From Stramenopiles sp. TOSAG23-6 (lineage: Eukaryota > Sar), in NCBI GenBank assembly GCA_900128565.1, contig LT635989.1, forward strand, positions 1 to 25,984: a stretch of 25,984 bases of DNA. Reading direction: 5' to 3'. Position 1 is the first letter of the stretch, and each line of letters starts with the position of its first letter. The notes beneath the pieces were generated by a model. It saw only the letters and a program-made list of their open reading frames with translations. It made no database searches and was not told the origin of the DNA. The position numbers and the translations under genes were made by a program. This document shows positions 1 to 25,984 of the stretch, piece after piece.

Positions 1-55
1 CAAAATTTCGTACGAAAAAAAATAAATTCGAAATTGAAAAAAAAATAAAACATAC
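1..55 (-). repeat. Partial intron of the repeated family (5' half), intron 1 of the PIGG-like gene
   Basis: On the minus strand it begins GTATGTTTTATTTTT and runs to the TTTCGTACGAAA palindrome, where the window is cut. It matches the 5' half of the nine complete copies elsewhere in the window. The CTAAC box and 3' end are missing. Confidence 0.85.
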
Positions 56-1814: not shown

Positions 1815-2582
1815 TTAAAATTGGAGATAAAAATGGAATGCATGAATATAAGCAAAACCACCAGGTTGTTTGGTGCATTTTTTGTGTGTGTAAGGCGTGG
1901 GCAATTGGAATATAGACATTGATGGTTGACTTAATTTGACATTGGTAAACTGATACGTCATGTATTTTGGAAAAATATTTCAAAAGAAAAATCGTTAGGT
2001 ACAAAATTTCGTACGAAAAAAAAAATCGAATTTGAAAAAAAATAAAACATACATTAAAGGTTCAGAAATTCCCTGTCCATCTTCACCTACAGCTAACCAC
2101 TCTTCTGTCAACATAACAGGATAACCAGTATCGGCATTCTGCCAGATATGGATGTATGAATCTAAAGTTTTGACGATAAATCGTTCGCAGTTTGTGCAAA
2201 TGCCAGAGAGCGACTCATTTCCTTTATAGGTTGCTGTAGAAGGAAACTTTGGTTCTGGCATATTCTCACCCAAGTAGAACCTATTACACTCAGCATATTC
2301 GCCACTTTCAATCATATACTCTTGTTTTGAGTCATAGCGTCGGATGTAACTTCTTCCTGCTTCATAGCCGACGCTGATGTCAGCCCGAGCACGGCGATTT
2401 GTATAGTCATAATAGACTTTTAGTTTTCGCTCCCGATGAGGATATTCTGTGCCCTCCGGTATCTGATGTGCTGTAATTACTAAATCGGCAGAAAATTGTA
2501 GTGGAAAACGAAGTACGGGTGTTAAAGAGTAACCAAAGTGAACAAGTATGAAGCAGAAGAGTAAAACTGACTGTAGCATCAT
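1815..2582 (-). CDS. Conserved secreted protein of unknown function (two exons)
   Basis: The exons are 2053-2582 and 1815-1959, joined across the family intron at 1960-2052; together they give 224 residues ending in TAA. The product begins with a signal peptide (MMLQSVLLFCFILVHFGYS). The mature part looks like a beta-rich lipid- or ligand-binding fold: YYDYTNRRARADI, a YIRRYDSKQEYMI strand pair, several cysteines (AECNRF, GICTNCERF) and IHIWQNADTGYPVMLTEEW. After splicing the frame continues smoothly as EPLMTYQFTNVKLSQPSMSI and FQLPTPYTHKKC to a short C-terminus. The overall pattern recalls ependymin-related or LolA-like secreted proteins in other protists, but that is an impression from memory, not a search. 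It is divergent from the TRANK1-like gene, with about 440 bp between them. Confidence 0.8.
1960..2052 (-). repeat. Family intron (93 nt) in the secreted-protein gene, GT...AT
   Basis: On the minus strand it starts GTATGTTTTATT, contains TTCGTACGAAATTTTG and TACCTAACGA, and ends TTTTTCCAAAATACAT. Phase 2. Exon flanks are TTTAAT and GACGTA. Splicing at GT...AT restores the open frame. Using the next downstream AG (after GTATCAG) leads to a stop within a few codons. Confidence 0.88.
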
Positions 2583-6000: not shown

Positions 6001-9000
6001 AAATTTTGGAAAATCATAAAAATCAATTCGTGGATCAATAAATATGAGAGTCCGGGGACACAAGAAAGCAAATCCGGTGAAACTTTGCAGTCTCAAAAAT
6101 CAAAACGTGCCCATCCGAAGCAATCACTTCCCATATCTCAGAAGAAGGAGGCAAGTAAAAAAGACAAAAACAGTGGTGAGAAAACGCAACAACTAAAACC
6201 AAATACGAAGCAATCATTTCCCAAATCTCAGAAGAAGGAGGCAAGTAAAAAAGACAAAAACAGTGTTGAGAAAACGCAACAACTAAAACCAAATGCAACT
6301 GAACAACAGTCGCTAGAATTAATGTGGCAATCAGTCAATGATCAACTACCAAACGAACGATTTAGCTGGGAGCAACAGAAAGCAACAGTTGAAGCAAAGG
6401 AAGTAAAAGACAGTCTGTCTATAACTTTAAGTAATGGTATTGCTAATGATATTCCAATGCAAGCCATGGGGGGTACTGCGTCTGCCGCAAGAGCCGATGA
6501 TGAACATATTGATTCTGCAGCCAATGCTGAACATATTGATCATAAAGTACAGGAGTTGTATGAAACAACACTTGGGTCACCCGTTGCAAAGATTGTCAAA
6601 GGAAATGGAGGAGGAGGAGGTGGTAGTACCAGTTTAAGCAGGCGACAAAGAAAGAAGAAAAATAAAAGAGAAATGCAACGTTATAAAACAATCTTGAAAA
6701 ATACTCGTGTTGAGTATAGAAATCCTGTGGCGAAATGGATAGAAACTGCAGGAAAAACAGAATTGAAACAATTTGCAAACATTGTGCAAAATATTTATTA
6801 CCCAAATCGCAATCATAAGAAAATATTACAAGGCTATAAGGGTGAGTATGGTAACTTTGTGATAGAAGCTCGTCTGGATAAAGCTGCACGTGTTTTATTT
6901 GAGCTACGAGGAAAGGATGATGATGGACATGTAAATCCGGCAGTCATTCATCGAGTTGTATTAGATCATGACGATGTACCACACTATGCTAGTCAAATTG
7001 CGCATAATCTTAGTTCTCCAGATATGATATCAATGGATGCAGAATCAAAGGGAGCAGAAGAGGCAAAAGAATCTAAAGAAGTTGCATCAGATATGAAATT
7101 TCGGAAAAATGCAGGCGCTGTGAAACGATTTTTCTTTGAACCTAATGAAGACTTTGAATGGTTACATCAGGATAAGAGAGCAATGGATCGCTATCAACAG
7201 TTAGAAGATACACAAAATAAGCTGGTGCAGATGAATGGATATCTAGCGATTCAAGGCCGAAGTGGTACAGGTAAGTCTATTGTGTTATTACATCGAATGC
7301 TACGCTGGCATTATTATCAACAAGGAGAAGTTGAAGCTAACGAAACGAAACGCGTGTATACTCAAGTATATATTGCAAAATCGAAACTTCTTACAGATGC
7401 AATAAAGAATAAAGTATCACCTGATGAGTGTGATGCAAAATATGCGAAAATGAAGTTTTTACCACTTGTTGTTTCTAAGGCAAATCCTGAATTTACTACA
7501 CTACTAGTATATTTAGAGAATGAGACAAAGCCTTTAGACCATGAGCCTGAGCGTGTGTTTTCAGAGGATATGCGTGTTGATTTCATATTGTTCAAGAAAT
7601 GGTATGATGGGGAGCACGGATTTAAACCAATCCAAAGGCGAAGTAAGCTTACATTCTCTGCACTAACAGTGTGGACACAAATACAATCCATTATCAAAGG
7701 TTCTTTACAAGCATTTAAGAGTGGTAAGCCATTGACTAGAGAAGAATATTTGGCATATAATGGACGCAAAGTACCGTTTAAAAAAGAGGAGCGAGAGGTG
7801 ATCTATGCTGTATATGAACGTAGTCAAAAATCATATGGCCTCAACAAATATGATAATGGTGATCGTGTTTTACAATTAGCTCGGAGGCTTAATAGAAAAG
7901 ATACTGGATGGAAAAGTGGAATACATCCTTTTGATCGTGTTTATGTAGATGAAGTGCAAGATTTAACTCCAGCTGAACTTGCATTAATTTTTATGGCTGT
8001 TGGTGAGAATCCAAAAGCAGTTACTGTAGCAGGTGATGTAGCCCAACAAGTCACTGCCGGTGTAGAGTTTAAATTTAGTGATGTTCTGACAGTAATGAAT
8101 ATGCATAAAATAAACCCTGCATTTCGTAAACAAAAGGAAACTTTTAGAGCAGACGCAAAAATATTGACTGAAAACTTCCGTACACATCAAGGTGTGCTCA
8201 AACTAGCAAACTATTTTATTAATCTTCTCAGAAAGGACTTTTATTTAGAAAATGCACTTGAAGAACATAGTAAAAATATGGGGCCTCCTCCAGCGACATG
8301 GGTAACTACTATTGAGCAACTTTTGGTAGAGTTGGGTGAGAAATCTAGTGCATTGTTGCTTTTCATAGATGATACTTCAAAACAAGCATTCCGTCAGTCG
8401 AAAGCATTTCAAAAACTAATGGAAAAAAAACAGCAAACAATACTTATGTTTACAGTTGTCGAAGCAAAAGGTCTTGAATGGGAACATGTTGTTCTTGTTA
8501 ATTTCTTTTCAACGCCGAATATGAGATGGAATACAAAGCATATTTCAAAGGACCCCGATACTAAACATTTGTTAAAATTGATTTACACGGGAATAACACG
8601 ATGTCAGAGTCGTCTTTTTATCGTCGAAACTAATCCATTCAAAGGTTCTCACCCAGCACTCGGTAAAATAAAAGACTCAACTCAAGTGTATCATCAAACG
8701 TGTGAAGCACCAAAACTAGCATTAAACCAATTGCAATTGAACCAATTTGGTATGATTAAACAAGGTTTTATGTTGGTATCAATGGCACTTAATGGCGAAG
8801 GCGATCAATACCAGTTTTTGTCACAAGCTGCAAATGCATTTGCATTAGCAAATAGGGAGGACTTAGCTGAAAGAGCTATTGCAACTAACTATTGTATGAA
8901 TAGCTCTCTTGCATTTCGAAATGAGGAAAAACTTGTATTATTTGTAAGTAATTGTATTAAATGTGGAATGTATAGTAAAGCAAAGCAAGAGGTGGTCAAG

Positions 9001-9063
9001 TGGTATAGTAAAAATCCTCTTCATATTGATTATTTGAAAGCAATAGAAGAAAAAATTCAATAA
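3019..9063 (+). CDS. TRANK1-like protein: signal peptide, long ankyrin array, UvrD/Rep-type superfamily 1 helicase
   Basis: An intronless gene for about 2014 residues. The first ATG in frame is at 3019; a second at 3031 is equally possible. The N-terminus looks like a cleavable signal peptide (MKRLLLSILLIALLCTTAEA) followed by GKKRRRKK. Roughly 25 ankyrin repeats follow (about residues 35-905, consensus GxTPLYIASxxGHxxVVxxLLxAGADVNxA). Next comes a charged linker with a 30-residue tandem repeat and a GGGGGG patch, then a region ending in EARLDKAARVLFELRGK and VLDHDD that also precedes the helicase in TRANK1-type proteins. Helicase motifs: Walker A GRSGTGKS (about 1413), DEVQD (about 1644), GDVAQQV, NFRTH (about 1719), EAKGLEW (about 1815) and TGITRCQSRL (about 1857). 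These are intact, so ATPase activity is plausible. Substrate and compartment are unknown. The order ankyrin-helicase matches TRANK1; the signal peptide is unexpected for a helicase. Confidence 0.88.
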   Translation: MYCNMKRLLLSILLIALLCTTAEAGKKRRRKKATSLYEAAKNGYVGVVRQLLKAENINVNLASIDGVTPLYIASQYGHAGIVAQLITAGADVDKATNKGATPLYIASQNGHENVVEKLLALGADVDKAGRLGKTPLYIASEYGHPGVVAQLIAADADVDKTDLREFTPLHVASHNGHAGVVEQLITAEADVNRARAGFTPLMSAAREGHAGVVAQLIAAGANVHEARNGVTPLIFASASGNVEVVQLVLDAGADVHHADKNGATPLYAAASLKVHEEVGARLIASEKGNVGVVQLLLDAGADVNHAAENGTTPLYIASKEGKDEVVVQLITAGADVNQADNDGITPLSIALAKGHEGVVKELLEAKADVNQANKDRETPLHIASWSGHAGEVVQLITAGADVNHANKTGATALYMASLNGHDKVIELLLKADNIDVNKADQDGDTPLIAASRNGHAVVLGLLIGAGAATDVNQPNKKGATPLYIASQENKVEVIEKLIEAKAYVNFADNDGATPLYIASHNGHVGVIRQLLKAENINVNLASIDGVTPLYIASQYGHAGVVAQLLNKEADVNKTMKGEFTPLYVASEYGHVGVVRLLLDKGAGINHADHQGITPLYIASQNGRVGVVGVLLEKHADVNQATDDGCTPLHVASAHGYVGIVEELIAADAVVNQTTKSEVTPLFVASENGHDKVVTQLITAGADVNQVENTGGTPLFIASKYGRVGVVELLIKAGANVNTAKKYGETALLIASQNGHAGVVKLLIDAGADVNQAAAGEYTPLYVASHKGCAGVVGLLIGAGADVNQPNKKGVTPLYIASQENKVEVIKKLIEANACVNFADNFGSTPLLIASQKGHVGVVKSLLKSDDIDINQANEDGYTPLMIASAKGNGKIEKLLKLRGLQPLFDAFDKVGIPSARILSNKNPKLVQAFSELNTLNDIIEGTFTALENLCGSMDSMNVVAIKNENKKIWTSFMEAYETKPKYKDFTKLSKRLHNKFWKIIKINSWINKYESPGTQESKSGETLQSQKSKRAHPKQSLPISQKKEASKKDKNSGEKTQQLKPNTKQSFPKSQKKEASKKDKNSVEKTQQLKPNATEQQSLELMWQSVNDQLPNERFSWEQQKATVEAKEVKDSLSITLSNGIANDIPMQAMGGTASAARADDEHIDSAANAEHIDHKVQELYETTLGSPVAKIVKGNGGGGGGSTSLSRRQRKKKNKREMQRYKTILKNTRVEYRNPVAKWIETAGKTELKQFANIVQNIYYPNRNHKKILQGYKGEYGNFVIEARLDKAARVLFELRGKDDDGHVNPAVIHRVVLDHDDVPHYASQIAHNLSSPDMISMDAESKGAEEAKESKEVASDMKFRKNAGAVKRFFFEPNEDFEWLHQDKRAMDRYQQLEDTQNKLVQMNGYLAIQGRSGTGKSIVLLHRMLRWHYYQQGEVEANETKRVYTQVYIAKSKLLTDAIKNKVSPDECDAKYAKMKFLPLVVSKANPEFTTLLVYLENETKPLDHEPERVFSEDMRVDFILFKKWYDGEHGFKPIQRRSKLTFSALTVWTQIQSIIKGSLQAFKSGKPLTREEYLAYNGRKVPFKKEEREVIYAVYERSQKSYGLNKYDNGDRVLQLARRLNRKDTGWKSGIHPFDRVYVDEVQDLTPAELALIFMAVGENPKAVTVAGDVAQQVTAGVEFKFSDVLTVMNMHKINPAFRKQKETFRADAKILTENFRTHQGVLKLANYFINLLRKDFYLENALEEHSKNMGPPPATWVTTIEQLLVELGEKSSALLLFIDDTSKQAFRQSKAFQKLMEKKQQTILMFTVVEAKGLEWEHVVLVNFFSTPNMRWNTKHISKDPDTKHLLKLIYTGITRCQSRLFIVETNPFKGSHPALGKIKDSTQVYHQTCEAPKLALNQLQLNQFGMIKQGFMLVSMALNGEGDQYQFLSQAANAFALANREDLAERAIATNYCMNSSLAFRNEEKLVLFVSNCIKCGMYSKAKQEVVKWYSKNPLHIDYLKAIEEKIQ
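3142..3276 (+). repeat. Ankyrin DNA segment duplicated at 4579-4713
   Basis: This 135-nt segment is repeated at an offset of 1437 nt with only about seven differences by eye. It encodes LLKAENINVNLASIDGVTPL and flanks. Other ankyrin units are much more diverged, so this copy pair is recent or homogenised. Confidence 0.85.
4396..4545 (+). repeat. Ankyrin DNA segment duplicated at 5395-5538
   Basis: This segment (GLLIGAGA through VNFADN) recurs about 1 kb downstream with few substitutions and a 6-nt (two-codon) length difference. It is a second recent internal duplication in the ankyrin array. Confidence 0.85.
6118..6297 (+). repeat. 90-nt tandem repeat (two copies) in the linker of the TRANK1-like gene
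   Basis: Units 6118-6207 and 6208-6297 are nearly identical and in frame. Each encodes a basic 30-residue unit containing SQKKEASKKDKNS and EKTQQLKPN. The segment joins the ankyrin and helicase halves and is probably disordered. Confidence 0.9.
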
Positions 9064-9341: not shown

Positions 9342-10469
9342 TCATTTTGTTGTTCTTTTCAAACACTCGTTCTTGTGTGTAATCTTCCAATGTATTTTCT
9401 GACACTTTTTTGAACAATATGTCGCACAGTTACACCGACTACAAAGAAGCATTTTATAATGTGTACCCTCTTTACCACAAGTAAAACATGTTGATTTGCT
9501 GTATTTAATTATTAATCTCTTTACCTCATCATCTTCTACATCTTTTATCTGCTTTTTGGCCTTTGCATTCCACTTTGATGCAGTTTTCAAACATTTAGTG
9601 ACACCACGACCATGATAATAGCAGCAACCAAGCATACATTGTGCAGTACTATCACCAGCATTCGCAGATTTAGTATACCACTTAAAAGCTTCTTTTTTGT
9701 CTACAGCAACACCATCACCATCTAAATAGCAATAACCAAGATGATTTTGTGCATAACTATTACCAGCATTTGCAGATTTAGTATACCACTTGAAAGCTTC
9801 TTCTTTATCTATAGCAACACCAACACCATTATCATAGCAGACACCAAGATTCTTTTGTGCACTACTATTACCAGCATTCGCAGATTTAGTATACCACTTG
9901 AAAGCTTCTTCTTTATCTATAGCAACACCAACACCATTACCATAGCAACAACCAAGAGTATATTGTGCGTAACTATCACCAGCATTAGCAGATTTAGTAA
10001 ACCACTTGAAAGCTTCTTTTTTGTCTACAGCAACACCATCACCATTAAAATAGCAATAACCAAGACTGCATTGTGCTACACTATCACCTGCATTCGCAGA
10101 TTTAGTATACCATTTGAAAGCTTCTTCTTTGTCTTCAGCAACACCATCACCATTATCATAGCAATTACCAAGTTGATTTTGTGCAGTAATATTACCAGCA
10201 TTTGCAGATTTAGTATACCACTTGAAAGCTTCTTCTTTGTCTTCAGCAACACCATCACCATTTTCATAGCAATAACCAAGATGATTTTGTCCATTGCTAT
10301 TGCCAGCATTCGCAGATTTAGTAAACCACTTGAAAGCTTCTTTTTTATCTTCAGCAACACCATCACCATAAAAATAGCAACAACCAAGACTGTTTTGTGC
10401 GGCACTATTACCTGTATTAGCAGATTTAGTATACCGCTTGAAAGCTTCTTGTTTGTCTTTTGCGCCCAT
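9342..10469 (-). CDS. Sel1-like repeat protein with a C-terminal MYND zinc finger
   Basis: A single-exon gene for 375 residues, ATG at 10469, stop TGA. About eight Sel1-like repeats of 36 residues fill the first 300 residues, each close to AFKWYTKSANAGNS then AQxxLGxCYxNGDGVAxDKxE. They are so alike at the DNA level (108-nt units) that they must have been amplified or homogenised recently. After a basic linker (KWNAKAKKQ) comes a MYND finger (about residues 328-369) with the expected Cys/His ligands: CFTCGKE, LLCSRCN, YCSKKCQKIHW, HKNEC. Sel1 arrays are alpha-helical protein-binding scaffolds, and MYND fingers bind proline-rich peptides, so a scaffold or adaptor role is likely. Sel1-MYND architectures are familiar from protists such as diatoms. 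The start lies in a tandemly duplicated segment. Confidence 0.88.
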   Translation of the reverse strand: MGAKDKQEAFKRYTKSANTGNSAAQNSLGCCYFYGDGVAEDKKEAFKWFTKSANAGNSNGQNHLGYCYENGDGVAEDKEEAFKWYTKSANAGNITAQNQLGNCYDNGDGVAEDKEEAFKWYTKSANAGDSVAQCSLGYCYFNGDGVAVDKKEAFKWFTKSANAGDSYAQYTLGCCYGNGVGVAIDKEEAFKWYTKSANAGNSSAQKNLGVCYDNGVGVAIDKEEAFKWYTKSANAGNSYAQNHLGYCYLDGDGVAVDKKEAFKWYTKSANAGDSTAQCMLGCCYYHGRGVTKCLKTASKWNAKAKKQIKDVEDDEVKRLIIKYSKSTCFTCGKEGTHYKMLLCSRCNCATYCSKKCQKIHWKITHKNECLKRTTK

Positions 10470-10693
10470 CTTGAAGATACTCTGATACTCTCTCTCTCTC
10501 TCTCTCTCTCGCTTGGATGCTAAACACTGAACAACGTAACGAATGTTTAGTTGTAGTTAGTGCTTTTGTCTTTCGCGCCCATCTTGAAGATACTCTGATA
10601 CTCTCTCTCTGATACTCTCTCTCTCTCTCTCTCTCTCCCTTGGATGCTAAACACTGAACAACGTAACGAATGTTTCGTTGTACGTAGTTAGTG
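10452..10693. repeat. Tandem duplication (about 111 and 129 bp) covering the Sel1-MYND start codon, with CT microsatellites
   Basis: Unit A (10452-10562) and unit B (10565-10693) both run from TTTGTCTTT, GCGCCCATCTTGAAGATACT, a (CT)n tract and TTGGATGCTAAACACTGAAC to GTTAGTG. B has an extra CTCTGATA stretch. The copies are almost identical outside the microsatellite. Unit A contains the gene's own ATG; unit B carries a second ATG upstream. Confidence 0.88.
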
Positions 10694-12758: not shown

Positions 12759-14403
12759 TTAGATATCTACAATTTTACACAAATCATCAATATTATAACG
12801 AGGCATAGTTTTACTATCTTTCTTTTGATGAATATTCCAAATACATTGAGTGATTAATTTTGTCATTGCCATGTCTACAGAGTCATACATTTTTTTACAT
12901 TTACTATAATCTATGTTTATACTTTCTTCTTTGTCAAACTCTGTGAGTTTATTGTTTTCAACAGTATCATTAAACTGTTTTATCGCGGTATAAAAATCTT
13001 TTTTAGATCCAAAATGGCCGAAACCAAAACCATAACGATTTATTCCAACCATTCTTAGTGTTTGTTTCAACGAATTTTTATCATTATTTCGTTGATTCTT
13101 CTGAGCTTTACATGAATGTCTCATGAAAATCCGACCCCATTTACATGTGCTAGGTGGAATATCTACTATACTTTCCTTACATTTTTGGAATGATTTTTTA
13201 TCATGTTTCAGAGTGAAATTGCCTGCATTTTTGTCATTGTACAAAATCGAGGACTTTCTTGTAGTTGACATATTTGTATTGATCATAGTTTTTATATTTG
13301 AAGTTTTCGTTTGATTACATACAAATGCATCTATAGAATTCAAAGTTTTCTTTTCTTTTACTCTACATATTTTGTGAAAAAATATTTTTTTTTATACAAT
13401 TTGTTAGGTACGAAATTTCGTACGAAAAAATAATTGAAAAAAAAAATCTATCTGTAAAGTACTAACAAATTCAGAGGAGAGACAAGTTGTCCCTTTGAGC
13501 TTTTGAACTGTTGTCCTAAACCAATGAATAATACTGTATATATGTATTGTGAAAACAAATTTCAAAAAAAAATGTTTTTTTGTTAGGTACAAAATTTGGT
13601 ACAAAAAAAATAAAATAGAAATTTGTAAAATGTACAATAAAAATCGATAAAAAGAAGTTCCCTACAGTTGTATGACGTAGCCAATGTCTTGTTTCAAGTA
13701 TGCTCCATGATGTATTATTATGCAAATTGTTACTCCTAGATACATCTTGGTTAACAACGAAATCTCCAACAATTATGCCGTGGTTACAGCCTACTTGAAA
13801 CTCTACACCTTCTACTGGCTGTATATGGCTACATATGACTCTATCAGAGTGAGTTGAAGCAATATTATCTCTAATTTTTAACCGATACCAAGTATTTGGT
13901 TTGAGGGTTATAGTATTCAAGTTACTTAACTTTGTCAAATCAAAGAGTATACTTTGGGGATTTACATGATCATCATTAGAGATAGTAGTACTATCTACAC
14001 CATTTTTACACACATTCTTTGGAAAAGTATTCTTTAAAGGGAAACTTGATAAAGACGATAAAGACGGACTAGTCGTACAACTATTAATTTGATAGTAACT
14101 ATATAAGTTAGGTATGACATGAATATTTTCAAGAATGAGACCACAAGAAACAACCTGATCATCTAATAGTCCACTGATTCTAAATAAAGATGTTGTTCTT
14201 CGAGGAAATGGTTCACCATATTTACACGAAGTCATAATATCTACAAAGTAATAATAAGAAGACAGTTTTGTTGTTGGACTTTTTTTTGTGCTAGCATTAC
14301 AATTACAAAGCTTATTTTTGTTATCGGGATGACAGGTTGTATTTTTCAAATTAATGGGAAGACGATCTTCATCATCCAGCGACTCGGAAAGTTGCAAAGA
14401 CAT
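12759..14403 (-). CDS. Unrecognised three-exon gene (484 residues)
   Basis: The exons are 13636-14403, 13463-13541 and 12759-13366, with family introns between them. The exon sum (768+79+608 nt) is a whole number of codons and the joined frame is open from ATG to TAA. I do not recognise the family. The first exon contains SYYYFVDIMTSCKYGEPFPR, FRISGLLDDQVVSCGLILEN and ITLKPNTWYRLKIRDNI, beta-strand-like segments that could form a small barrel. The second exon adds a hydrophobic stretch across the junction (FFLSIFIIYSIIHWFRTTV), possibly membrane-associated. The third exon is polar, Lys/Asn-rich and Cys-containing, with GRIFMRHSCKAQ, RMVGINRYGFGFGHFGSKKD and YDSVDMAMTKLITQCIWNIH. It is the least conserved-looking gene here, but the coherent splicing supports it. 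Confidence 0.65.
13367..13462 (-). repeat. Family intron (96 nt), second intron of the 484-residue gene, GT...AT
   Basis: It starts GTACTTTACAGATAG, has TTTTTTCGTACGAAATTTCG then TACCTAACAA, and ends TTTTTTCACAAAATAT. Phase 1. Exon flanks are TTGTTA and GTAGAG. This is the most divergent 3' end (AAATAT). Left-shifted borders such as TG...CA are impossible here because the exon ends in A, which helps fix the family rule as GT...AT. Confidence 0.75.
13542..13635 (-). repeat. Family intron (94 nt), first intron of the 484-residue gene, GT...AT
   Basis: It starts GTACATTTTACAAATTTC, contains TTTTGTACCTAACAA and ends GTTTTCACAATACAT. Phase 0. Flanks are TTTATT and ATATAC. The AG at ATATACAG just downstream cannot be the acceptor, because the frame would hit TAG a few codons later. 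Confidence 0.8.
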
Positions 14404-14725: not shown

Positions 14726-16855
14726 TTATTCATTTGAACAAACATTTTTCATAATCCATTCACCTTCCTCTAGTGCACATGTAGCATGCGTTGGATGCGT
14801 AGGTAATGCAATCCATGTATCTTTCTCTAGTGCTGCTGTCGCAGTAAGACTTTTATAAACAGTTTCATTTAATTTCAAAGTGTTTTTAATATCAACACCA
14901 AGTAATACTGATATTGTCTTTATCGACTCCTTCTTTCTTCGACCCTTGACTATATACCAATATATTGCATCTCCCCATTTCATAATATTAGCACTATCCT
15001 TTAAACTGCTTGTATTACTCATTGTTTTAGACTTACTATATGTTGAACGTTTGGCTTTTGAGCAAGGAACTTTTGTAGTTTCATGTTTGCTATGTAAACA
15101 ATGACACGAAATCTCTCGAAATGATTTGTCAGAAGAATTACATTTCAATCTATCACACGAATAAATAGTCTCATATGCCCCCGAATTTTTATACCTTACT
15201 TCAATGCCGTTTTTATTTTCAAAACACTCGCGAAATGAAGCTCTATACCATGCATTGTGAAAAATACCAAAAATCAATTCGTTAGGTACAAAATTTTATA
15301 CAATTTTTTTTTGAAATTCATGATAAGAAAACATACACGTACCTTTATATTCTACCATAAGGCCCGCATCATTCAAATGTAATGCATTAGCCCATGCAGA
15401 CATACAAGAAGGAAGATTTGAGTGAGAAATACTGCTGGAAGTGGAAGAAGCACTTTCTTGTTGTGATAAGAGATTTTGTTCTTGATATTTACATTTGTAT
15501 GACTTATTACTAAGCATATCCTCAGTTGAACTCTTCCTTTTCTTTCTGTATGACTTATTACTAAACATATCCTCAGTTGAACTCTTCCTTTTCTTTCCAG
15601 AACTTTTCTTACGTGTTTTAGAAGTTTTGCTTGAAGTGGCAGAAGAAGGTGCAGATATTGAAGATAAGTATTGATTACGAAAAGATAAGTATTGATTACG
15701 AAGTGATTGTAATGAAACTCCAGCCTGTTTCACACTTAACCAACCATTATCAGTTTTTTTCGATGGTACAATCCTGCGCTTCGTACATGTATTTTGGAAA
15801 AATATTTCAAAACAAAATTGTTCGTTAGGTACAAAATTTCGTACGAAAAAAAATTCGAAATTAAAAAAAATAAAATATACATATAGCCCAGCCAGAAGGT
15901 GCGTTAAACATAGCTCTAGTAGTTTCATCAACAATTATACCTTCTTTGGTCAATGCGGCATTGAAGACAACACCTTTGAAAGTTATTGTCAGTGCTTTTG
16001 GACCTGATAATAAAATCCCGGATTTGACAAGATCTAGAAGACTACATGTATTTTGGAAAAATATTTCAAAAAAAAATTGTTAGGTACAATTTCGTATGAA
16101 AAAAAATTGGAATTCGAAAAAAAATAAAACATACATGACTTTGAGGAGTTTTCATCTTCAATATCAGATGAATCAATAGCCGAATCAGTCGCCGAATTAG
16201 ATGCTGAATCAAATAAAGATTCATCGGAATTATGATTTCGTTTGTTAAACTCTTCTTCTTCACTTCCAGAAGAAGTATTTGAAAAATCATGTTTTTGGTA
16301 TTTATTGTAGTAGATTTGGCGAGAGTTACGTATTTTCTGAACATTTTTCGCTGAAGGAACATTTACTTGACCTCGATGCCTCAATAGAATTCGAGGAAAT
16401 ATCTGAACATTACCATTTGGAAACTCCAACCAATCGGCAGTGTTGTTATCATAATCGATCAGAAATATCAATACGTGTTGATTTTTTTTATGTTGCTGAT
16501 TGTTTGTTAGGTATGGATTTTTTTCAGCAAATGGAGATAAATTAGGTAAATCCTCTTGTAATAAAACCAAAGTTTTTCCCACATCAGATTTCTTTATATT
16601 GTAATACAACTTGATGTACCCCAAAATAAGTTGGTTGTGATATCTGACTTGTACTCTCCTTCCAATAAGGTTAGGAAAATTATTCATAATAATCTGAGAT
16701 TGATGAGGGTGAGCATAAGAATGAACTTGTCGAGAGTTATTCTTTATATGTCTAACTCTTTCCGTCTGACCATCTCTTTGAGTATTGTTACTGATAAGTT
16801 GGCCAGGTTTATCGGAATTTACGCCAATTGCATCAGGAAGAGAAAATGCTCTCAT
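14726..16855 (-). CDS. RAMA-domain protein with Tudor-like regions (four exons)
   Basis: The exons are 16135-16855, 15881-16045, 15337-15786 and 14726-15249, joined over three family introns; 1860 nt, 619 residues, stop TAA. The ATG at 16855 is the first in frame after an upstream TGA. Residues about 63-160 look Tudor/Agenet-like (IGRRVQVRYHNQLILGYIKL, then VLIFLIDYDNNTADWLEFPN). After an acidic Ser-rich linker, residues about 242-325 form a RAMA domain: LLDLVKSGILLSGPKALTI, TFKGVVFNAALTKEGIIV, FNAPSGWAICTKRRIVPSKK, GWLSVK. It is split by intron 2. A basic linker with a repeated unit (RKKRKSSTEDM, SNKSYK) follows. A second Tudor-like piece (GLMVEYKGTWYRASF, KNGIEVRY) is assembled across intron 3, whose removal creates its Trp. 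RAMA domains accompany adenine DNA methylases and the metazoan protein MPND, so a nuclear reader of modified DNA or histones is inferred. Confidence 0.8.
15250..15336 (-). repeat. Family intron (87 nt), third intron of the RAMA gene, GT...AT
   Basis: It starts GTATGTTTTCTTATC, contains AAAATTTTGTACCTAACGAA and ends GTATTTTTCACAATGCAT. Phase 1. Flanks are GTACGT and GGTATA. Splicing gives EYKGTWYRASF; the Trp codon is built across the junction. This is the shortest complete copy and has lost the TTCGTACGAA palindrome. Confidence 0.85.
15787..15880 (-). repeat. Family intron (94 nt), second intron of the RAMA gene, GT...AT
   Basis: It starts GTATATTTTATTTTTT, contains TTCGTACGAAATTTTG and TACCTAACGAA, and ends TTTTTCCAAAATACAT. 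Phase 1. Flanks are CTATAT and GTACGA. Splicing rebuilds the RAMA core as PSGWAICTKRRIVP. Confidence 0.88.
16046..16134 (-). repeat. Family intron (89 nt), first intron of the RAMA gene, GT...AT
   Basis: It starts GTATGTTTTATTTTT, contains CATACGAAATTGTACCTAAC and ends TTTTTCCAAAATACAT. Phase 1. Flanks are AGTCAT and GTAGTC. Splicing joins the acidic linker to the RAMA domain (SSKSCSLLDLVKSG). Confidence 0.87.
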
Positions 16856-17243
16856 CTCAAGTGACAATAGTGTTTTTTTCGAAAGTGGTGAAAGAAGAAT
16901 CCATCAACAACAACGAAAAAAAATCCGCTGTTATTTTTTTCAAAAACACGAAAAATTCAGATTTTTTTTTCATGTTTTCCAAGGTTGAACATTTGAAATG
17001 ATAAATATTTTTAAAAACATCATATTTTCATTAATTCTATTCCGATGGCAAAATTTTTCTGAAGCAAACGCTGATGATGATGAAACTGTAGTTCATTTAG
17101 ATATTCTATGTTTTGAAACTTAAAGTAGTGAATTAACAATGAGTCACTTGAATGAGTCCTCTTATTAAATTTCTACAAATTCAATTCAATTTTGAAAATA
17201 AACAAGGAATATCTATTTATTATGTACGATGAATCAATTTCAT
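16856..17243. other. Intergenic region between the RAMA and VPS53 genes
   Basis: This AT-rich region is the RAMA promoter and VPS53 3' region. On the minus strand an AATAAA (17221-17216) lies about 23 nt after the VPS53 stop and could be its poly(A) signal. Positions 17131-17158 match 14682-14709 (downstream of the RAMA stop) at about 24 of 28 bases. No gene seen. Confidence 0.45.
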
Positions 17244-20133
17244 TCAATTTTGGCTACTACTACTACTACTTCCCATTCTGAACATTGATGCAAAATTAGC
17301 TGCTGTTGCTGCCGCAGTATTCGTATTAAATCGTTGTGAGAGTTCTGCGGCAGCATCGGACACAGTTCCTGTAAGACTTGTCGGTTTATACTCGAGACCC
17401 ATCTTTTCAATAACTTCCTGTTGATCACTTTTCTTCTCACCTTTTAGGGTCATAACACGTTGTAAATCTGCAGCGGTGCCACCAACCCATAAAATTTTAA
17501 AACTTTGAGGTAAACGTTCCAAAGGAGTCCCGATTAGTTTCAGCAGCATGACGGCTTTATTCGCTTCTTTATTTGCATATTTACTGAATGTGGAGAGAGA
17601 TCGAATCATCGTAGCTTTTTCATCAGATTCTAAGTCTGAAGTCGGAACAGAAAGAAATGATGTTTTAACAGCATGTGTATCGAGTAATAGTTGTTGTGCA
17701 GCCATTTCACTGATGCGTTTACATTTGAAGATATTTTGTGTAAATCGCGGTAAAAATAAAGCTGCGAAACGATCACAGAAATTATTAAAGTAAATCGGTC
17801 CAGATAGCGCAGAACGAATGGGTATCACTTGTTCCCGAAGTATTTTTGATATTTCAACCACATAAGGAGACTGGTCGCCAACATCAACACATGTATTTTG
17901 GAAAAATATTTCAAAAAAATCGTTAGGTACAAAATTTACTATAAAAAAAAATTCCGAAATTGAAAACAAATAAAACGTACATGTACCCCACGGCATTCGA
18001 TGCATTGCAATGAGAGAGGGTTCTAATTTAACGACACAACCAGATATTTATTGTGAAAAAATATTTTTAAAATTTGAAATTCATTAGGTACGGAATAATT
18101 TAACAAAAAAAACAAATAAATAAAAATATGAAATTCATAAATGTAAAACGTACACTAGACACTTAATCGCTGCTCCAATGACATCATAAAATGCATCGGG
18201 AGAAATATCAATATGTATTTTGGAAAAATATTTCACAAAAAAAAAATTGATTTTTGTTAGGTACAAAATTTCGTATGAAAAATAAATTAGAAATTGAAAA
18301 AAAAATAAAACATACATGTTCCTCAAATACTTCGTCGATTTCATCTTGTAGCAACTCTTCTAATTGGGGCGAAGTCTCCGCACAATAGGCAGCTGTGTTT
18401 ACAATAAAACAAATCCAGTCACGAGTTTTATCATCTTTAATAACAAAATGATCTCCTAAAGAAGAATTAAATTGAGACTTTGGAAGTTTTTCACTTAATC
18501 TTTCAGAATATGTTGCTAAAACAGATTTAATTTCCTTTTGAAGTAAAAATAAAGTTTGACCATTAGAAAAATGAACACAACGTTCGATTGCTTTTTTGAT
18601 ATATCGAAACAAAACTGCCGCAGATTGTAAAACTCCAATGTTACCTGATGTCATGTTTTCTTCTTCTTCTGACATAGCCTGTTCCATAATAGTAATCATA
18701 TTAGCCTTTTCAGCTTCTACATATTTTGACAAATATGGTTGAAATGCTGCGCTAATTATGCCTTTAAACTTTTTCAATTGTATTTCATTATTTATATTAT
18801 CTCCATTTTTTCCATTGAGTGACGTAGCACTCCCAAGTGGTGCATTAGAGGTGTCATCAAGACCATCATTAAAACGATTTGTCTCTCTTTTCTCTTTTTC
18901 TTTCTTTTCACGTTCGATTCGTTTGGCTTCAGTCCTCTGTTTTTCATATTTTCTACGAATGCCTTCTGCACTATTTGGATCAATTAATTGACCATCATCA
19001 TCAAATTCTGGACCACCTCCACCACTACGATTTGTTGAATCATCAGAATCTTCAATTTCTTTAAAACGATCACATAACATACGTTCAAATGATTTGGTTA
19101 CACGAAGATGATGCATTAATAATTTCACATGCAAATCTTCGTTCAATAAAGAATTCAATTGAAGCCGCGTCGCTTCACAAAATTGAATACAAATGCGCCG
19201 ACACATTTGCCAATTTTGGGGGAAAACGTCAGCTAAATGTTTATCAAAGATCTTGAGAAGTCGTTTAAACCATTTAAAACGTCGATCAACTGCAGCTTCT
19301 TCAGTTAAAATATAACCTTCGCCACCTCTCCCAAATAATCGATTATATGGACGAAGTTGATCTTCATAAAATAAGCGGATAAGTCTCTTTTGATGTGTAC
19401 CACCGATTGATTCAACTACGAGGCAAGCATCACGTAGAGCTTCAGGGTCTATACCAGCTAACTGAGGATTATCTATAATTGCTCCAACTTCTCGAAATTG
19501 ATCAAATATTTTCTCCTTTAAATCTTTTTGAAGCTCTTTGACGACACCACATAACTCAGCCACCTTTGGTACATCCGTGTATGCTTCAAAATATGATGCT
19601 AATGATGTTACAGCACTCACCAGGTACGCTGCACGGTTATATTCTCCAGTCTTTGACATCTTTTGGAGTTGGTCAATGGCAGTCACCCACATTTGGAGCT
19701 TCTTCAGGGATGCAATTGTCGTAGTCAAGTGATGCTTTGCGGAATCTAATTGTTTAATATCGCGGCATATTTCTTCTACCATTACTTCAGACTGCTCTGC
19801 TTTTGACTTGATATCTTTTATTTTGTGCGAAAGCTGCAGGATAGACTGCTTCGCATCATCTACATCACGTGAAGTCTGCTTTGAAGCAACAGCCTGTTCT
19901 CTAATTGCTTCAAATATTTCCTCATCTAAATTTTGTATTCGATCATTTAAATCTACAGAAAATTGATCAATGCGTGAAAGGGATACTTCATCTGGAAATT
20001 GTGTGTTCAAATACGCAATAGGATCAAAGTCAGCACAATCTAGAGGGTCGTCCGAAGGAAGCACGTCTGCGATAGCTCGTTCTACAGCATCACTGAAACG
20101 GTCACGATCAACTGGACTCTGAGATGCTGGCAT
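17244..20133 (-). CDS. VPS53: VPS53, subunit of the GARP/EARP tethering complex (four exons)
   Basis: The exons are 18316-20133, 18154-18212, 17981-18045 and 17244-17890; 2589 nt, 862 residues, near the family's usual 800-830. The first ATG in frame is at 20133; the open frame before it starts at GTG. VPS53 acts in the GARP complex at the trans-Golgi, tethering endosome-derived vesicles. The Vps53 N-terminal signature is clear: PLDCADFDPIAYLNTQFPDE, HKIKDIKSKAEQSEVMVEEI then CRDIKQLDSAKHHLTTTIASL, LRDACLVVESI, DRRFKWFKRLL and NWQMCRRICIQFCEATR. The C-terminal half has AYCAETSPQLEELLQDEI, then, across three introns, IAMHRMPW, VGDQSPYV and NIFKCKRISEMAAQQLLLDT, all well conserved in VPS53. The predicted splice joins restore these blocks without gaps. 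The long charged insert near residues 360-430 is typical lineage-specific variation. This is the best gene for judging the intron borders. Confidence 0.94.
17891..17980 (-). repeat. Family intron (90 nt), third intron of VPS53, GT...AT
   Basis: It starts GTACGTTTTATTTG, contains AAATTTTGTACCTAACGA and ends TTTTTCCAAAATACAT. Phase 1. Both flanks show ACATGT. Splicing joins HRMPWGT to the conserved VGDQSPYV block in frame. Confidence 0.92.
18046..18153 (-). repeat. Family intron (108 nt), second intron of VPS53, GT...AT
   Basis: It starts GTACGTTTTACATTTATG, has GTACCTAATGAA (the only copy with T instead of C at the end of the box) and ends TTTTTTCACAATAAAT. Phase 2. Flanks are CTAGT and ATCTGG. 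The most diverged complete copy; no AG is near its 3' end. Confidence 0.88.
18213..18315 (-). repeat. Family intron (103 nt), first intron of VPS53, GT...AT
   Basis: It starts GTATGTTTTATTTTT, contains CATACGAAATTTTGTACC then TAACAA, and ends TTTTTCCAAAATACAT. Phase 0. Flanks are GAACAT and ATTGAT. Splicing joins EVFEEH to IDISPDAFYDVIGAAIK, matching the helix pattern of VPS53 in this region. Confidence 0.9.
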
Positions 20134-20447
20134 ATAGGCCGCCAAGGACACAACAGTATTGTGTTTGTAATATCAATGTGGGAAGCAGTGCAAATTGAAT
20201 TGGTATTTAAGTCTGCCTAAAATTCCAGCGAATGATGAAAGCGATGAGACGAATTAAGATGTCAACACGACGACTTTGACCCACGGGAACCCTAACCCTA
20301 GCCTAGCGTGTCTATCAAGAATTTCAAAATTCATGATGGCTGTCATAAAAAAAACACTTTCGATTTCGGCAAGAGCAAAGCTTTGCCTTTGAGTTGTTCA
20401 ATTTAAATTGGATCATAAAGTCGTGATTACTTCATATCGGAAAAAGA
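20134..20447. other. Divergent promoter region VPS53 / DUF1330 protein, with a telomere-like motif
   Basis: This 314-bp region lies between two divergent start codons. It contains CCCTAACCCTAG (20290-20301), two telomere-type units similar to the telo-box found in some plant promoters. It could be a regulatory site or a chance or relic telomere repeat. I see no gene. Confidence 0.4.
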
Positions 20448-21333: not shown

Positions 21334-24300
21334 TTACAAGATAAACATTAAAATGCAAAAAGTTATACTCAAGAAGGACGCCAATTCTTTTGATGAAGCT
21401 CCACTTGAACCTAATGCCATCGCATGTACATTTTCAGCAGTTACAGTTGGAACTAAACCATTATTGACTTTTGCCGATAACAATCGATCTTTCGTTAATG
21501 CTTCCATCTCTTTTCCCATCAATTGGAGTTCATTTTTTTCTGATTCGTTAGCAGTCATTTGTACAGTCATATCTACTTTGAGAGAACCATCGTAAATTTT
21601 CACCCCATTTGTACCATTTTTAACAGATAGTAAACCTCCCGATTCAACTGCAGTCACAATTTCACTCTTAAGTTTTGCAGCGTTAACACTAGCATCATAT
21701 TCCATATTGTATTTAAGAGTTATATCAGCACTAAATGTTGCTTTTGCATTCGGTTTAAGTTCTTTTTCTCCGCCTTTGCTGGTATCATCTTTTACGGTTA
21801 CGTCTCCATCTTTTGTTTTGTCATTCGGTGTTGGAGTTTTGTCATTCGGTGTTGGAGTAGGAGGGCTAGTACACGACGTTTTCTGTAATAACCAGTTGCC
21901 ATCTGTATCACATTCCCTGGTAATAGCACCGCTTTGTCCAGAAGGGCACGCTATTGACGCTGTTTTGCCAGCTTCAGTGGTTGGAAAGCCATCAACTGCA
22001 TTGCAATCAGGGGACTTCGGGGGAAGACCAACCTCCATATCACTCTGTCTCTTTACAAAGATCCATCGGCCTGCAGATAAACCAGTTGCGCAGAGTAAAC
22101 CATCTTTTGTCGTAATAGTCGTCTTTATAGGAACACCAATGACACCCGATTCAGTAGATTGTGCAACATCGAGAGTATCAAATTTTGTACAAATCTCCTT
22201 ATCAGGCACATCAACTTTCCTACACAATAATGTGCTGGCCCCTTCTACTTCAGTTTTTACAAACGAGTCATTTAGAGTTTGTCCAATGATGTGCCCTTTA
22301 GCATTAGGTACGTTAGCCCATTTTTCACACGCTTGATATTCAGATGGCATAAGTCTTCTTCGTGTACTTAGGGGTTTTGTATTATAAAGACCAAGACCAA
22401 GTTCAAGGTTTTCAACAACACGTGTTTTGTCTCCACTTGAGCAACTTTTTGTTGTGCAACCACCAGGACATGAAATACGGACACTTGCATTAGCCAATTC
22501 AAATCCACTCGACGCTATACTTTCACATAACACAGTTTTTGACTTGAGTACAACATTGACTACTCCTTTTTGTTCTTGAACTTTGTCACTTCCAACACCA
22601 CACGCATTTGCCACAACAGAAATCGCTGCAACGTTAGGAGCCGTATGACATTGAATTTGACGTTTATACATTTCATTAAATACGACAGCAATTCCATCAT
22701 CAATTAATGCATCCATTTTTCGTCTATCAATATCATCATCCACAACATACTTTGAAGTGTACTCTCTCTTCATCCATTGTCCCCGTCGAACTTCACCTGC
22801 AGTTGTCCACTTACCTGGATACCATTGTGCTCTGGGGTACCACTTTTTATCTGAACATTTACTTGTATTTTCACAGTCTGCTTTGCTCAATCCGGTCTCG
22901 GTCCAATCATTGTGTTTAGATCCACATGTACCTCCATGGGCATCACACGATACTTTATCGTTGGCCTCTTTAATCCATTTGTGATTTTTCATTGCTTCGC
23001 ATTCTCCTTTTTTATACACTGGAGCATGGCAACCAAATTTATGTGCGTAATCGTAAGTACTGGCATTATGATCACCATTCAGAAAAATATTACGACAGGA
23101 CTTGCGTCGGCCAGTTTCATCGGGTTCATATGGAAGTATACACTTACCACCACGTACATCCCAATCTGTACATTCCCCTTGCTGAGTACATTCGGCTTCA
23201 GTTTTACACGATGAATGTCTGTAGAATTTACACTGCATCAAACGTGACATTTTGGCCTCCGTGACAGATAATGTATGAAGTGACAATACTGCATCTTTGT
23301 GTTCATTAATACAATCTTGATCACTTGTTGGAGCAGATGTCATATTACGTAAAAAACATGTTTGTGTCCACCAATCAAAGTCACCTTTAGCAGCATGACA
23401 TGAAGTATAATCCGTCGCCGATTTAACTTCACATGAAACTTCACATTTTCCACGGTCAGACTTACTATCTTTACCTGATAATGTGCTACATGAATAAAAT
23501 GTCGCCGCTTCCTTTTTGCATACTGCTTCACCTTGCTCATCATTAAAATCAAAATCGCGAAGCAAGCAAACCTTTTCGGTATCATTCCATTCATACTTTG
23601 ATGTGCAATCATTTTGAGATTTATCAACAACACACAATGACTTTTTAGCATTATACGAAGTATAATTGTTATGACATGCAGAACAATGCCTGTTGCAACT
23701 TCCAGAATCTTCACCAAGACATTTGGCATTATAATCCCTACCCTGATTCCTCCTGTAACAAAGGCCTTCTTCGCATGCTTGTTTACTGTCGTTGTAACCT
23801 TTATAATGAGTTCGACCTTCCCACCATTGACCAGCATTTTTTTCACAATTTGCTTTGTTCACGTCAGTTTTGCTATGACTCCTAAACACAAGACACAAAC
23901 CAGCCCCACTAGCATAGTTGCTGTAAAAATAAAGACCCGAAAACATTGGGATAGTATTATTAGCAGTTTTTAATGAATGACACTTATCGTTATCGTTCTT
24001 ATCAGGAAAGAAACACATGGGTTCTCGACATTGATGATGGTCTCGATTTTCATTATGATCAACCGGCAGAATGGATTCGTTTGGTTCACATTTCACTACC
24101 CACTGGTTCAATTGTTGCTTTGTCTTTGTGTCACATGTTGAAGTATCACATTTCTTAATATGCTCACAATAAGCCTTTGAGTCTGTTTCAATATGATGAA
24201 AATATCCTGGAAACTTTGACGATGCATCCTTAAAACATGCTTTAACACACGTAGGTGGGTATGTCGTATTCCTACGAGGTTTAGGACATACTTCTGACGG

Positions 24301-25934
24301 TAAACATTTTTGCAAATTCCTCTTATCAGGACGCCCACAAATGTTTCTACCATGTCTTGACAGTAAAGTAGATTTAGTAGTGAGAATTTCTGTCTCAACT
24401 TTTGTCCATGCACTATGACCATTTTCCGAACAAGTGCACCCTCTATTTTTATTCCAGTAGCATCTCTCAATTACGCATTGATCTAAATCCATGTCTTGTT
24501 CACAATTACCACCTCCACAGTATTGCCCACAAAAAAAGTTATCACCATTAACATCAGTTACACCTTCTTTTTTGAAACATTCATCTTTTGTAGTTGGTGT
24601 CACTCCATTATCTCTCCAATTACAGTTCTTTTCTAACTCGCACAATGAGAGATTGGCCTCTTGCCATACATGTCCATTAGAAGTATAAGCATAACCAGAC
24701 TTAAGTCTATGAAATGTACCAACTGATTCATTTACATCAACCCATTTGTAATCAAGATCTTTTTGACAATCAACCTTTGCATGGTTCACATACGTCTCAC
24801 CATTTTTTGCTTTCGTAGCAGTTGGTACACAAAACGACAATTTCTTTACAGCAGTATCGCAACTAACAATCATCTCTGAATCAAGACGATTTTGCGCCGA
24901 ATCACCAAAATGATTTTGGCCTACTTTACAGTAACTTTTCTTATTTTTGTCATCATAGAGAGAGGTCACTGTAATGCCATTCATAGCTTCCAATGCTTTG
25001 CATTGTTCTTCTGTTAGAGGGCCTGTTTTCAAATCAATCATACACACACCCTGTTCATGCATGTATCCACTACCAACACAATTTTTCATTGTAACCTTTT
25101 TCATCCATTTTTGTTCTGCACAGTAGTAATAATCGCTCGGTTTTTTTATCAACTCTGTTGCTTTCGTCAAATCCGAAGGGCAAACTAAACTTTTAGAAGT
25201 TGGAACATCGTATAAACCTGCCAACAGTCCACTAGAATTCACAATTTTACTACTGAATCCTAAATCATCTGCAACATAATCCCAAACGCCCGGATCTTTC
25301 TCAGTGCCATGAGGAGCATTTTGTACCCAACATTTAAATAATGCTTTTGCTGCAGCTGATCCACTCATTTGCGTACATTGTTTCTTGCTATGATTGTCAG
25401 AGCATACTCCAGAATAACAATCACTCGATGTTGTGCAATCGTCTAAATTTGCCTTTGTTTTACCGTGATATACAGCCGATTGACATTCATTGACAAATTT
25501 CCTTGCTGCGTCAATGTCGTCCTCTGATGCATTTTGCTCAACTTCACTATCGCAGTTCATATCACCTGGAATATTTTTCAGGTACATCTGTTTACCGTAA
25601 TATTGAATAAAGGATTTTGCTTTTTCATAATCAGCACCACATCCTCCAGGTTCAGTCTTTTCTTTTTTTGCAATTGCCGTCGCTGTATCAGAAAGCACAC
25701 AATCATCTTTACCTGGTTCACCACCTACTCCAACAGAACACGTGTCAGTGTGAACACCCACTTTTTCTTCTCTGACGCAACATTGTGTCCACGCAGCAAT
25801 TTTGCTACAACAAGGATCCTTGTTGAATTCGGCTTTTTTTGCTGGATCATTTGGATCTATTGTACAAGCCACTGAATTGGGTAGCGTAACGGTAGTCGTT
25901 GCAGGTGTCAAAAAGGAATCAAGGTAGTGTAAGC
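21334..25934 (-). CDS. Large Cys-rich extracellular protein with a GPI-anchor-like C-terminus; last exon, 5' part outside the window
   Basis: One 4601-nt exon encodes the last 1532 residues; it begins in phase 1 right after a family intron. The first roughly 1100 residues are an array of diverged Cys-rich units with many C-x(2-6)-C pairs, Trp and Asp/Asn (DCTTSSDCYSGVC, QYCGGGNCEQDMDLDQC, CNRHCSACHNNYTSYNAKKS), like disulfide-rich surface proteins. Towards the C-terminus is a unit resembling sushi/hormone-receptor-type modules (CNAVDGFPTTEAGKTASIAC, PSGQSGAITRECDTDGNW). A PTPNDKTPTPNDKTKDGD stalk and a Cys-free membrane-proximal domain follow. The tail (SSGASSKELA, then FLSITFCILMFIL) is typical of a GPI-attachment signal. 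The presence of a PIGG-type enzyme in the same window fits GPI use. The N-terminus and signal peptide lie off the window. Function (adhesion, wall, prey or host contact) is unknown. Confidence 0.82.
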
Positions 25935-25984
25935 ATGTATTGTGAAAAATATTTTTTTTTTTGGTTTAAAAAAATCGTTAGGTA
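25935..25984 (-). repeat. Partial intron of the repeated family (3' half), upstream of the Cys-rich exon
   Basis: On the minus strand the fragment reads TACCTAACGATTTTTTT, then an A-rich tract, and ends ATATTTTTCACAATACAT. It matches the 3' half of the family. The window stops inside the GTACCTAAC box. Confidence 0.85.

Follow-up and report, generated by a model that had tools for sequence, protein, structure and literature searches.

The window analysed here is the whole of contig C39 (LT635989.1, Stramenopiles sp. TOSAG23-6), which is 25,984 nucleotides (nt) long and one of the 408 contigs that make up an 8,027,113-base genome. Four of its genes, among them the gene for VPS53, are interrupted by nine short introns that run from GT to AT, in place of the near-universal final AG, and whose removal restores the coding frame. 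These elements are introners, that is, copies of one repeat family, which recur in many genes of the same genome, and they coexist there with the ordinary class of intron, since a GT-AG intron is present in the eIF3b gene. We regard it as probable that they are spliceosomal introns which were inserted into genes and whose flanking exons are joined after YAT. A preliminary description of this DNA had noted the frame-restoring GT...AT introns, and that observation is confirmed; it had mentioned neither their membership of one repeat family nor the 2-bp direct repeat beside them, and its interpretation is partly supported.

When the nine introns were rebuilt, the frame was restored at GT...AT in every case, and the four genes gave the coding lengths (675, 1455, 1860 and 2589 nt) and the intron phases (2; 0,1; 1,1,1; 0,2,1) previously reported. 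The interval that had been singled out, 17891-18315, coincides exactly with the stretch occupied by the three minus-strand introns of VPS53. The further claim that no AG acceptor fits held at eight of the nine junctions and failed at the second intron of a 484-residue gene, where in-frame GT..AG choices exist, including 13462-13361. Consequently, the argument against AG acceptors rests on frame statistics and homology. GT-AT did prove to be the sole rule fitting all nine introns, although the end dinucleotides are ambiguous to the extent that the borders can slide in the flanking AT repeat. Borders outside the GT-AG, GC-AG and AT-AC classes, present in many genes and removed exactly, were upheld.

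Five of the nine cuts are supported by frame alone. At the other four, namely the three of VPS53 and that of a secreted-protein gene, comparison with homologues revealed no gap at the cut. As had been proposed, the joined VPS53 protein fits its family: ten homologues aligned without gaps at all three cuts, the W-x5-V spacing at cut 3 was identical in 10/10, and a 2-residue gap five residues past cut 1 lies within the exon. The secreted-protein cut falls inside PLM/TYQF and is gapless against eight homologues (for example PLL/TYDY). Two introners of eIF3b gave similar results. The first lies within GKNWCEMYV/AWSPNGTY, residues that the relative P0057 has identically and P0058 has all but two; both proteins continue across the site without an insert, as judged at the protein level. 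The second lies within KDAI/IVWD, beside QAIIIWD of the solved eIF3b, with the nearest gap about 7 residues off. In a RING finger protein, the CGHSLCAPC spacing was intact over the cut and the C3HC4 profile was filled to its last position. At the level of the whole domain match, PhyH, FkbM, MFS and ankyrin matches in the same set of six proteins also cross cuts, and in a DNA polymerase (IMS) protein the cut is located between domains. The choice of the eIF3b and RING genes was visual: of 50 joined frames, they were taken for their conserved appearance.

The precision of the borders was assessed on copies chosen without regard to reading frame. A profile built from 34 copies gave 156 matches, 121 of them distinct, in 311,920 fetched bases, some of which overlap and part of which were fetched because they contained copies. 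From these, 66 distinct near-full-length copies with flanks were selected by sequence similarity alone. With 90 nt on each side, the exact GT|AT cut left the frame open in 58/66 copies, compared with 14-19 for cuts moved by -2, -1, +1 or +2, 10 when the element was retained, 11 on the antisense strand and an average of 30.8 (maximum 42) with shuffled partners; the elements thus lie in sense orientation. With 60 nt on each side, the cut was open in 62/66 versus 25-30 for moved cuts, 37 when the first AG past the branch point was used and 35 with the first AG past the AT end. Shifts by whole codons (-6, -3, +3, +6) were open in 54-58 copies, as expected, and since they also preserve the frame, single-codon precision is known from the homologues only. 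Fifty joined frames cross a junction, and the phases were even (22, 18 and 16 among 56 copies with one open frame). Inspection of the eight failures at 90 nt suggested that two are VPS53 introns flanked by short exons, one has a stop 73 nt onward, one adjoins another intron and two have a wrongly called left boundary. Another (L035:2995-3086, plus strand) is restored if the donor is placed 2 nt upstream, at the GT in GTGTATGT, and represents a possible donor shift; the eighth is L037:5421-5533, to which we return below.

The copies have in common a GTAYGT donor, a TACCTAAC branch point and a terminus close to TTTTTCACARTACAT, together with a 2-bp direct repeat that is AT-like; inverted GTAT..ATAC ends were also seen. 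In the 66 copies, the end dinucleotides were GT-AT 58, GA-AT 3 and one each of GT-TT, GT-GT, GT-AC, TT-AT and TC-AC, the last two having a wrongly called left end; the donor was GT in 61, GA in 3 and something else in 2. A wider set of 83 combined, with overlaps counted once, 62 kept matches and 37 introns from a scan of gaps between coding segments (score >15.4, of 50 listed). The latter had been selected by end score and frame, whereas the former remained after the removal from the 156 matches of 37 that were 3'-partial, 10 at edges, 23 starting past model position 2 and 24 duplicates. Here the counts were GT-AT 72, GA-AT 3, GT-TT 2, GT-GT 2, GT-AG 2, GT-AA 1 and GT-AC 1. An AG ends none of the 66 sequence-selected copies and two of the 83, both with doubtful boundaries. 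The 37 gap-scan introns were 86-144 nt long, mostly about 100. Two of them were called as AG-ending, with doubtful boundaries. Between branch point and end, 28 have no AG at all. An in-frame AG at -33, -27, -15 or -6 in four is not discriminating; in four an AG stands at -5, out of frame (CACAG|TACAT type), which is an observation and not an independent test, because the 37 were accepted for having an in-frame called end.

We next considered 28 diverged, older copies, chosen partly by donor score. All have GT and 24 have G at +5, the donor continuing as GTAYGTTTT; the exon base at -1, a position used by no model, is T in 25. The branch motif, of the form GTACCTAAC, lies 32-47 nt from the end in 25/28. 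The acceptor block reads TTTTTCACA[A/G]TACAT in older copies and TTTTTCCAAAATACAT in young ones; in the older set the third-last base is C in 21, T in 5 and A in 2, the next is A in 26 and the last is T in 25. This last T carries 1.41 bits, compared with 0.04-0.17 for the next four exon bases and 0.67 for the fifth, a contrast that is partly built in, as inner intron positions helped to select the copies. Moreover, these copies are still kin (mean identity 68% versus 55% when shuffled), so that the shared motifs reflect descent in part and not function alone.

In 67/83 copies the dinucleotide preceding the donor is identical to that closing the intron, versus 60.9 after shuffling (a value reached in 0.0002 of 5000 shuffles), and in three of the five introns with AT on neither side the flanks match. 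Such a match would be the expected trace of a 2-bp target duplication. It also allows the borders to slide, such that for most copies GT-AT, TG-CA and AT-AC yield one and the same mRNA. We favour GT-AT because the donor consensus begins at the G and because of its fit to all nine window introns. As raw counts in the set of 83, the three bases directly before the donor are CAT in 26, TAT in 22 and CAC in 1, all of the YAY form.

The gap scan covered six contigs (220,789 bases, about 79% coding by hexamer score) with 80 same-strand gaps of <260 nt. Introner-like motifs were present in 48 gaps, the remainder being mostly intergenic by eye with a few undecided; no solution satisfying both motif and frame was obtained for 24 of the 80, and 50 distinct solutions were listed, 37 of them over the score cut. 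The scan could not detect long introns or introns that keep the frame open. Its lack of a clear canonical intron had suggested that all introns are introners, an idea overturned by eIF3b, in which an introner, a GT-AG intron and a second introner follow one another. The GT-AG intron is 402 nt long (ACG|GTATGT...AAATACAG|T), and its join, KILR/LAHTGVQFIDF, aligns without gaps with IQRFSHQGVQLIDF. With such an intron in the same genome, the usual recognition of AG has probably been retained. When the scan was widened to 63 pairs with gaps of 20-1500 nt, loose GT..AG candidates emerged, two without and four with a start codon; they are candidates by sequence, and two of the four are mirror copies on contig C2. 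The first 30,000 bases of C2 (L036-L038) contain mirror-image segments centred near position 17,000, which suggests an inverted duplication, likely an amplification chimera, and brings the unique scanned sequence somewhat below 220,789 bases.

The preliminary description had held that the borders imply a modified spliceosome or another excision route. Either is no more than a possibility: a GT-AG intron coexists with the introners, and PRP8 looks ordinary in the part examined. It is a single 2021-residue open frame, 316 residues of which, in the later part, are near-identical to solved PRP8 chains, including hPrp8. Two pattern matches to U6 were rejected, as the surrounding sequence is unlike U6, and a scan of 133,594 bases with Rfam at gathering thresholds gave no match.

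Taken as a whole, the sequence is best accounted for by removal through the spliceosome, with an acceptor peculiar to this class. A short AT-rich element resembling a miniature inverted-repeat transposable element would insert into a gene, leaving a 2-bp direct repeat, mostly AT. Every copy would supply its own donor GTAYGTTTT, branch point GTACCTAAC and unusual acceptor block. The major U2-type spliceosome would most likely be the agent, cutting the pre-mRNA at GT; the GT donor, the G at +5 and a CTAAC no more than about 50 nt from the end are all those of U2-type introns, the 3' AG being absent. The exons would be joined directly after the last YAT, leaving a U at intron position -1, with the loss of one repeat copy and the return of the pre-insertion sequence. 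The AG acceptor would thereby be bypassed, though the genome keeps at least one GT-AG intron. As a guess, a divergent U2AF-like protein might read the acceptor. We entertain, more tentatively, the idea that the introners form a second intron class with its own acceptor code, in which a CACAG 5 nt before the end, where present, is skipped and the join is made after the next YAU. One spliceosome might then serve the AG class and the introner-borne YAU class together, a proposal to which we give somewhat less than an even chance. If true, the acceptor code itself would have been dispersed by a transposable element.

Several points weigh against this account. The two eIF3b introner junctions and the RING junction come from genes hand-picked as conserved-looking; two protein searches for spliced products gave none from this species, the identical eIF3b match (P0056) continuing into the intron; and one copy (L037:5421-5533, plus strand) meets a TGA directly at the cut after exact removal, which is unexplained. 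The direct-repeat test is weak, as AT predominates on both sides. Searches for U1, U2 and U6 small nuclear RNAs, U2AF35, U1-70K and Prp18, with weak or no positive controls, found none; we do not read this as absence, the genome being partial (8.0 Mb, smaller than the published MAST-3 co-assemblies of 18.9 and 21.1 Mb). Finally, the intron ends pair in 23/36 folds versus 12.0 with shuffled interiors, which suits a spliceosome-free route as well.

In that route, known in kind from euglenids and diplonemids, pairing of the intron ends would hold the exons side by side for joining by an unidentified enzyme. We consider it unlikely, though the best placed of the alternatives. The direct repeat at the cuts, the complementarity of the AUGUAU and AUACAU ends and the pairing just mentioned all agree with it, as does the pairing of the ends in 28/35 young and 31/46 older copies, for which z averaged -1.18 and -0.62, respectively (2 of the 83 copies, containing N, were omitted). 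Against this, diverged copies keep the GTAYGT donor and, at unchanging spacing, the CTAAC branch block, for which such a route has no need, although descent from one family accounts for part of that conservation. In addition, positions +4 and -6 form an unpaired C-A combination in 24/83 copies and C-G in only 3.

Placing the borders two bases over would turn the elements into AT...AC introns, which would be either substrates of the minor spliceosome or AT-AC introns of the U2 type. Sliding in the AT repeat does yield AT...ATAC in most copies, and A at +1 with C at -1 is a known compensating pair. U12-type introns have the donor ATATCCTT or GTATCCTT and the branch TTCCTTAAC a short distance from the end; by this consensus, neither feature is found, the GTAYGT donor and a branch 32-47 nt from the end being unlike the minor class. 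Copies with unequal flanks would moreover become mixed pairs such as GC-AC, TT-AC, GT-AA and TT-AT (11 listed), and VPS53 cut 2 would give I where most homologues have V. We therefore judge this placement improbable. Ordinary GT-AG introns with acceptors slightly downstream or inside are less credible still. The in-frame AG at the second intron of the 484-residue gene, the real GT-AG intron of eIF3b and the in-frame AG between branch point and end in 4/37 introns speak for them; choosing an AG, however, opened the frame in just 37 and 35 of 66 copies versus 62 by AT and 25-30 by shifted cuts, and it would remove or displace conserved residues where VPS53, eIF3b, the RING finger and the secreted protein are cut. 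Least credible is programmed elimination from DNA in the manner of ciliate internal eliminated sequences. The small size and AT richness of the elements, their terminal inverted repeats and their 2-bp direct repeats would conform to it, but it gives no reason for the sense orientation (58 or 62/66 open versus 11 antisense) or for the retained donor and branch signals, and it is not known to occur in stramenopiles.

The host is probably an uncultured marine stramenopile of the MAST-3 group, sequenced as a single-cell co-assembly, as read from the name of the EukProt entry closest to VPS53 (GSMAST32.ASY1.ANO1.893.1, 98% identity over the aligned part); the differences noticed sit at the joins of that model or in translated intron. 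Single-cell co-assemblies of MAST-3A (18.9 Mb) and MAST-3F (21.1 Mb) have been described (PMC5778133). Ordinary gene finders can misread introner-bearing genes: the public VPS53 model of the organism (P0001) omits exon pieces and translates intron. The secreted-protein search had no protein of the source species among its matches. According to PMC5778133, MAST-3F gave too few complete protein matches for gene-finder training. Hidden GT-AT introns would be a possible cause of that shortfall should the present assembly be 3F.

Coordinates of the VPS53 gene and of the introners in the window, with borders as called and the support for each
Feature	Position	Strand	Length and borders	Phase	Support or remark
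VPS53 gene	17244..20133	-	862 residues after splicing		
VPS53 intron 1	18213..18315	-	103 nt; AT|GTATGT...AATACAT|	0	frame and homologues
VPS53 intron 2	18046..18153	-	108 nt; GT|GTACGT...AATAAAT|	2	divergent copy; frame and homologues
VPS53 intron 3	17891..17980	-	90 nt; AT|GTACGT...AATACAT|	1	frame and homologues
619-residue gene intron 1	16046..16134	-	GT...AT		frame alone
619-residue gene intron 2	15787..15880	-	GT...AT		frame alone
619-residue gene intron 3	15250..15336	-	GT...AT		divergent copy; frame alone
484-residue gene intron 1	13542..13635	-	GTACAT...ATACAT		divergent copy; frame alone
484-residue gene intron 2	13367..13462	-	GTACTT...AAATAT		in-frame GT..AG alternatives present
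Secreted-protein gene intron	1960..2052	-	GT...AT	2	frame and homologues
Introner 5' part, contig left end	1..55	-			sequence; partial match to repeat
Introner 3' part, contig right end	25935..25984	-	branch point to CACAATACAT		sequence

Both ends of the contig fall inside copies of the repeat. Contig C81 of the same assembly matches C39 in VPS53 and the introners at a constant offset of 4970 bases, equal to the difference in size, and is probably redundant with it; C13 and C14 likewise resemble each other. Elsewhere in the window, a 2010-residue frame (3031-9060, plus strand) contains 18 Ank stretches followed by parts of a UvrD-like helicase, and a gene with Sel1 repeats and a C-terminal MYND finger (9345-10484, minus strand) adjoins a (CT)n tract, present in duplicate, that was spotted by eye at about 10480-10690. 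A cysteine-rich frame of 1542 residues (21337-25962, minus strand), apparently a 3' exon only, had no Pfam match, and a tRNA search of the window found none. Interstitial telomere-like CCCTAACCC was listed at 14 places in the 220,789 bases, the C2 mirror copies being counted twice; stretches lie at 20290-20300 of the window, 7265-7370 and 47262-47392 of C384 and 15891-16025 of C2, and three distinct ones are located within introns.

Introners are already known, as are introns that do not end in AG. In the open-licence PMC literature, judged by titles, the opening of abstracts and selected passages, we found no report of such introns in MAST-3, nor of a stramenopile with one GT...YAT introner family beside a GT-AG intron. 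The word "intron" does not occur in PMC12614181 or PMC8163842, and "splic" is absent from the former and occurs once in the latter, within a reference title; "MAST" and "Stramenopiles" do not occur in the main text of PMC9860276. The organism would join the few lineages with mass non-AG splicing. Because its odd acceptor belongs to a single repeat family that largely obeys one rule, it would offer a uniform substrate for 3' splice-site recognition in which AG plays no part.

Many similar copies in different genes, with the coding sequence exactly restored, are the mark of introners, and both are seen here. Those derived from DNA transposons (Gozashti 2022, PMC9860276) likewise create introns by insertion, with target site duplications and/or terminal inverted repeats; the part available describes donors of the GC and GA kinds, with GY/AG as core nucleotides, and mentions no non-AG acceptors. 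Euglenids and hemistasiid diplonemids have non-canonical introns (PMC12621601) that resemble ours in their direct repeats and pairing ends, but a branch-point motif was detected in 2.4-15.8% of them, depending on the species, in contrast to the strong donor and branch signals seen here. The closest precedents are Amoebophrya and Fritillaria. Amoebophrya (PMC7789003) has repeated non-canonical introns, GT-AG introns in the same genome and an undetected U1; its introners carry 8-20 nt inverted repeats near their ends and 3-5 nt direct repeats across their borders. Their terminal motifs are diverse, >60% being non-canonical, without a clear dinucleotide signature, whereas we find, in another lineage and from DNA alone, one family that mainly follows GT...YAT and whose donor and branch motifs are clear. 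In Fritillaria borealis (PMC13326754), GT-AG introns are a minority, the core spliceosome is retained and AC or AT acceptors are used, with YAY at the intron end and often also just before the donor; a YAY-type end was found in our 28 older copies as well. The main non-canonical classes of Fritillaria begin with AG (AG/AC 18%, AG/AT 16%), while the donor here stays GT and the introns are visibly one repeat family; divergent U2AF paralogues have been demonstrated in Fritillaria.

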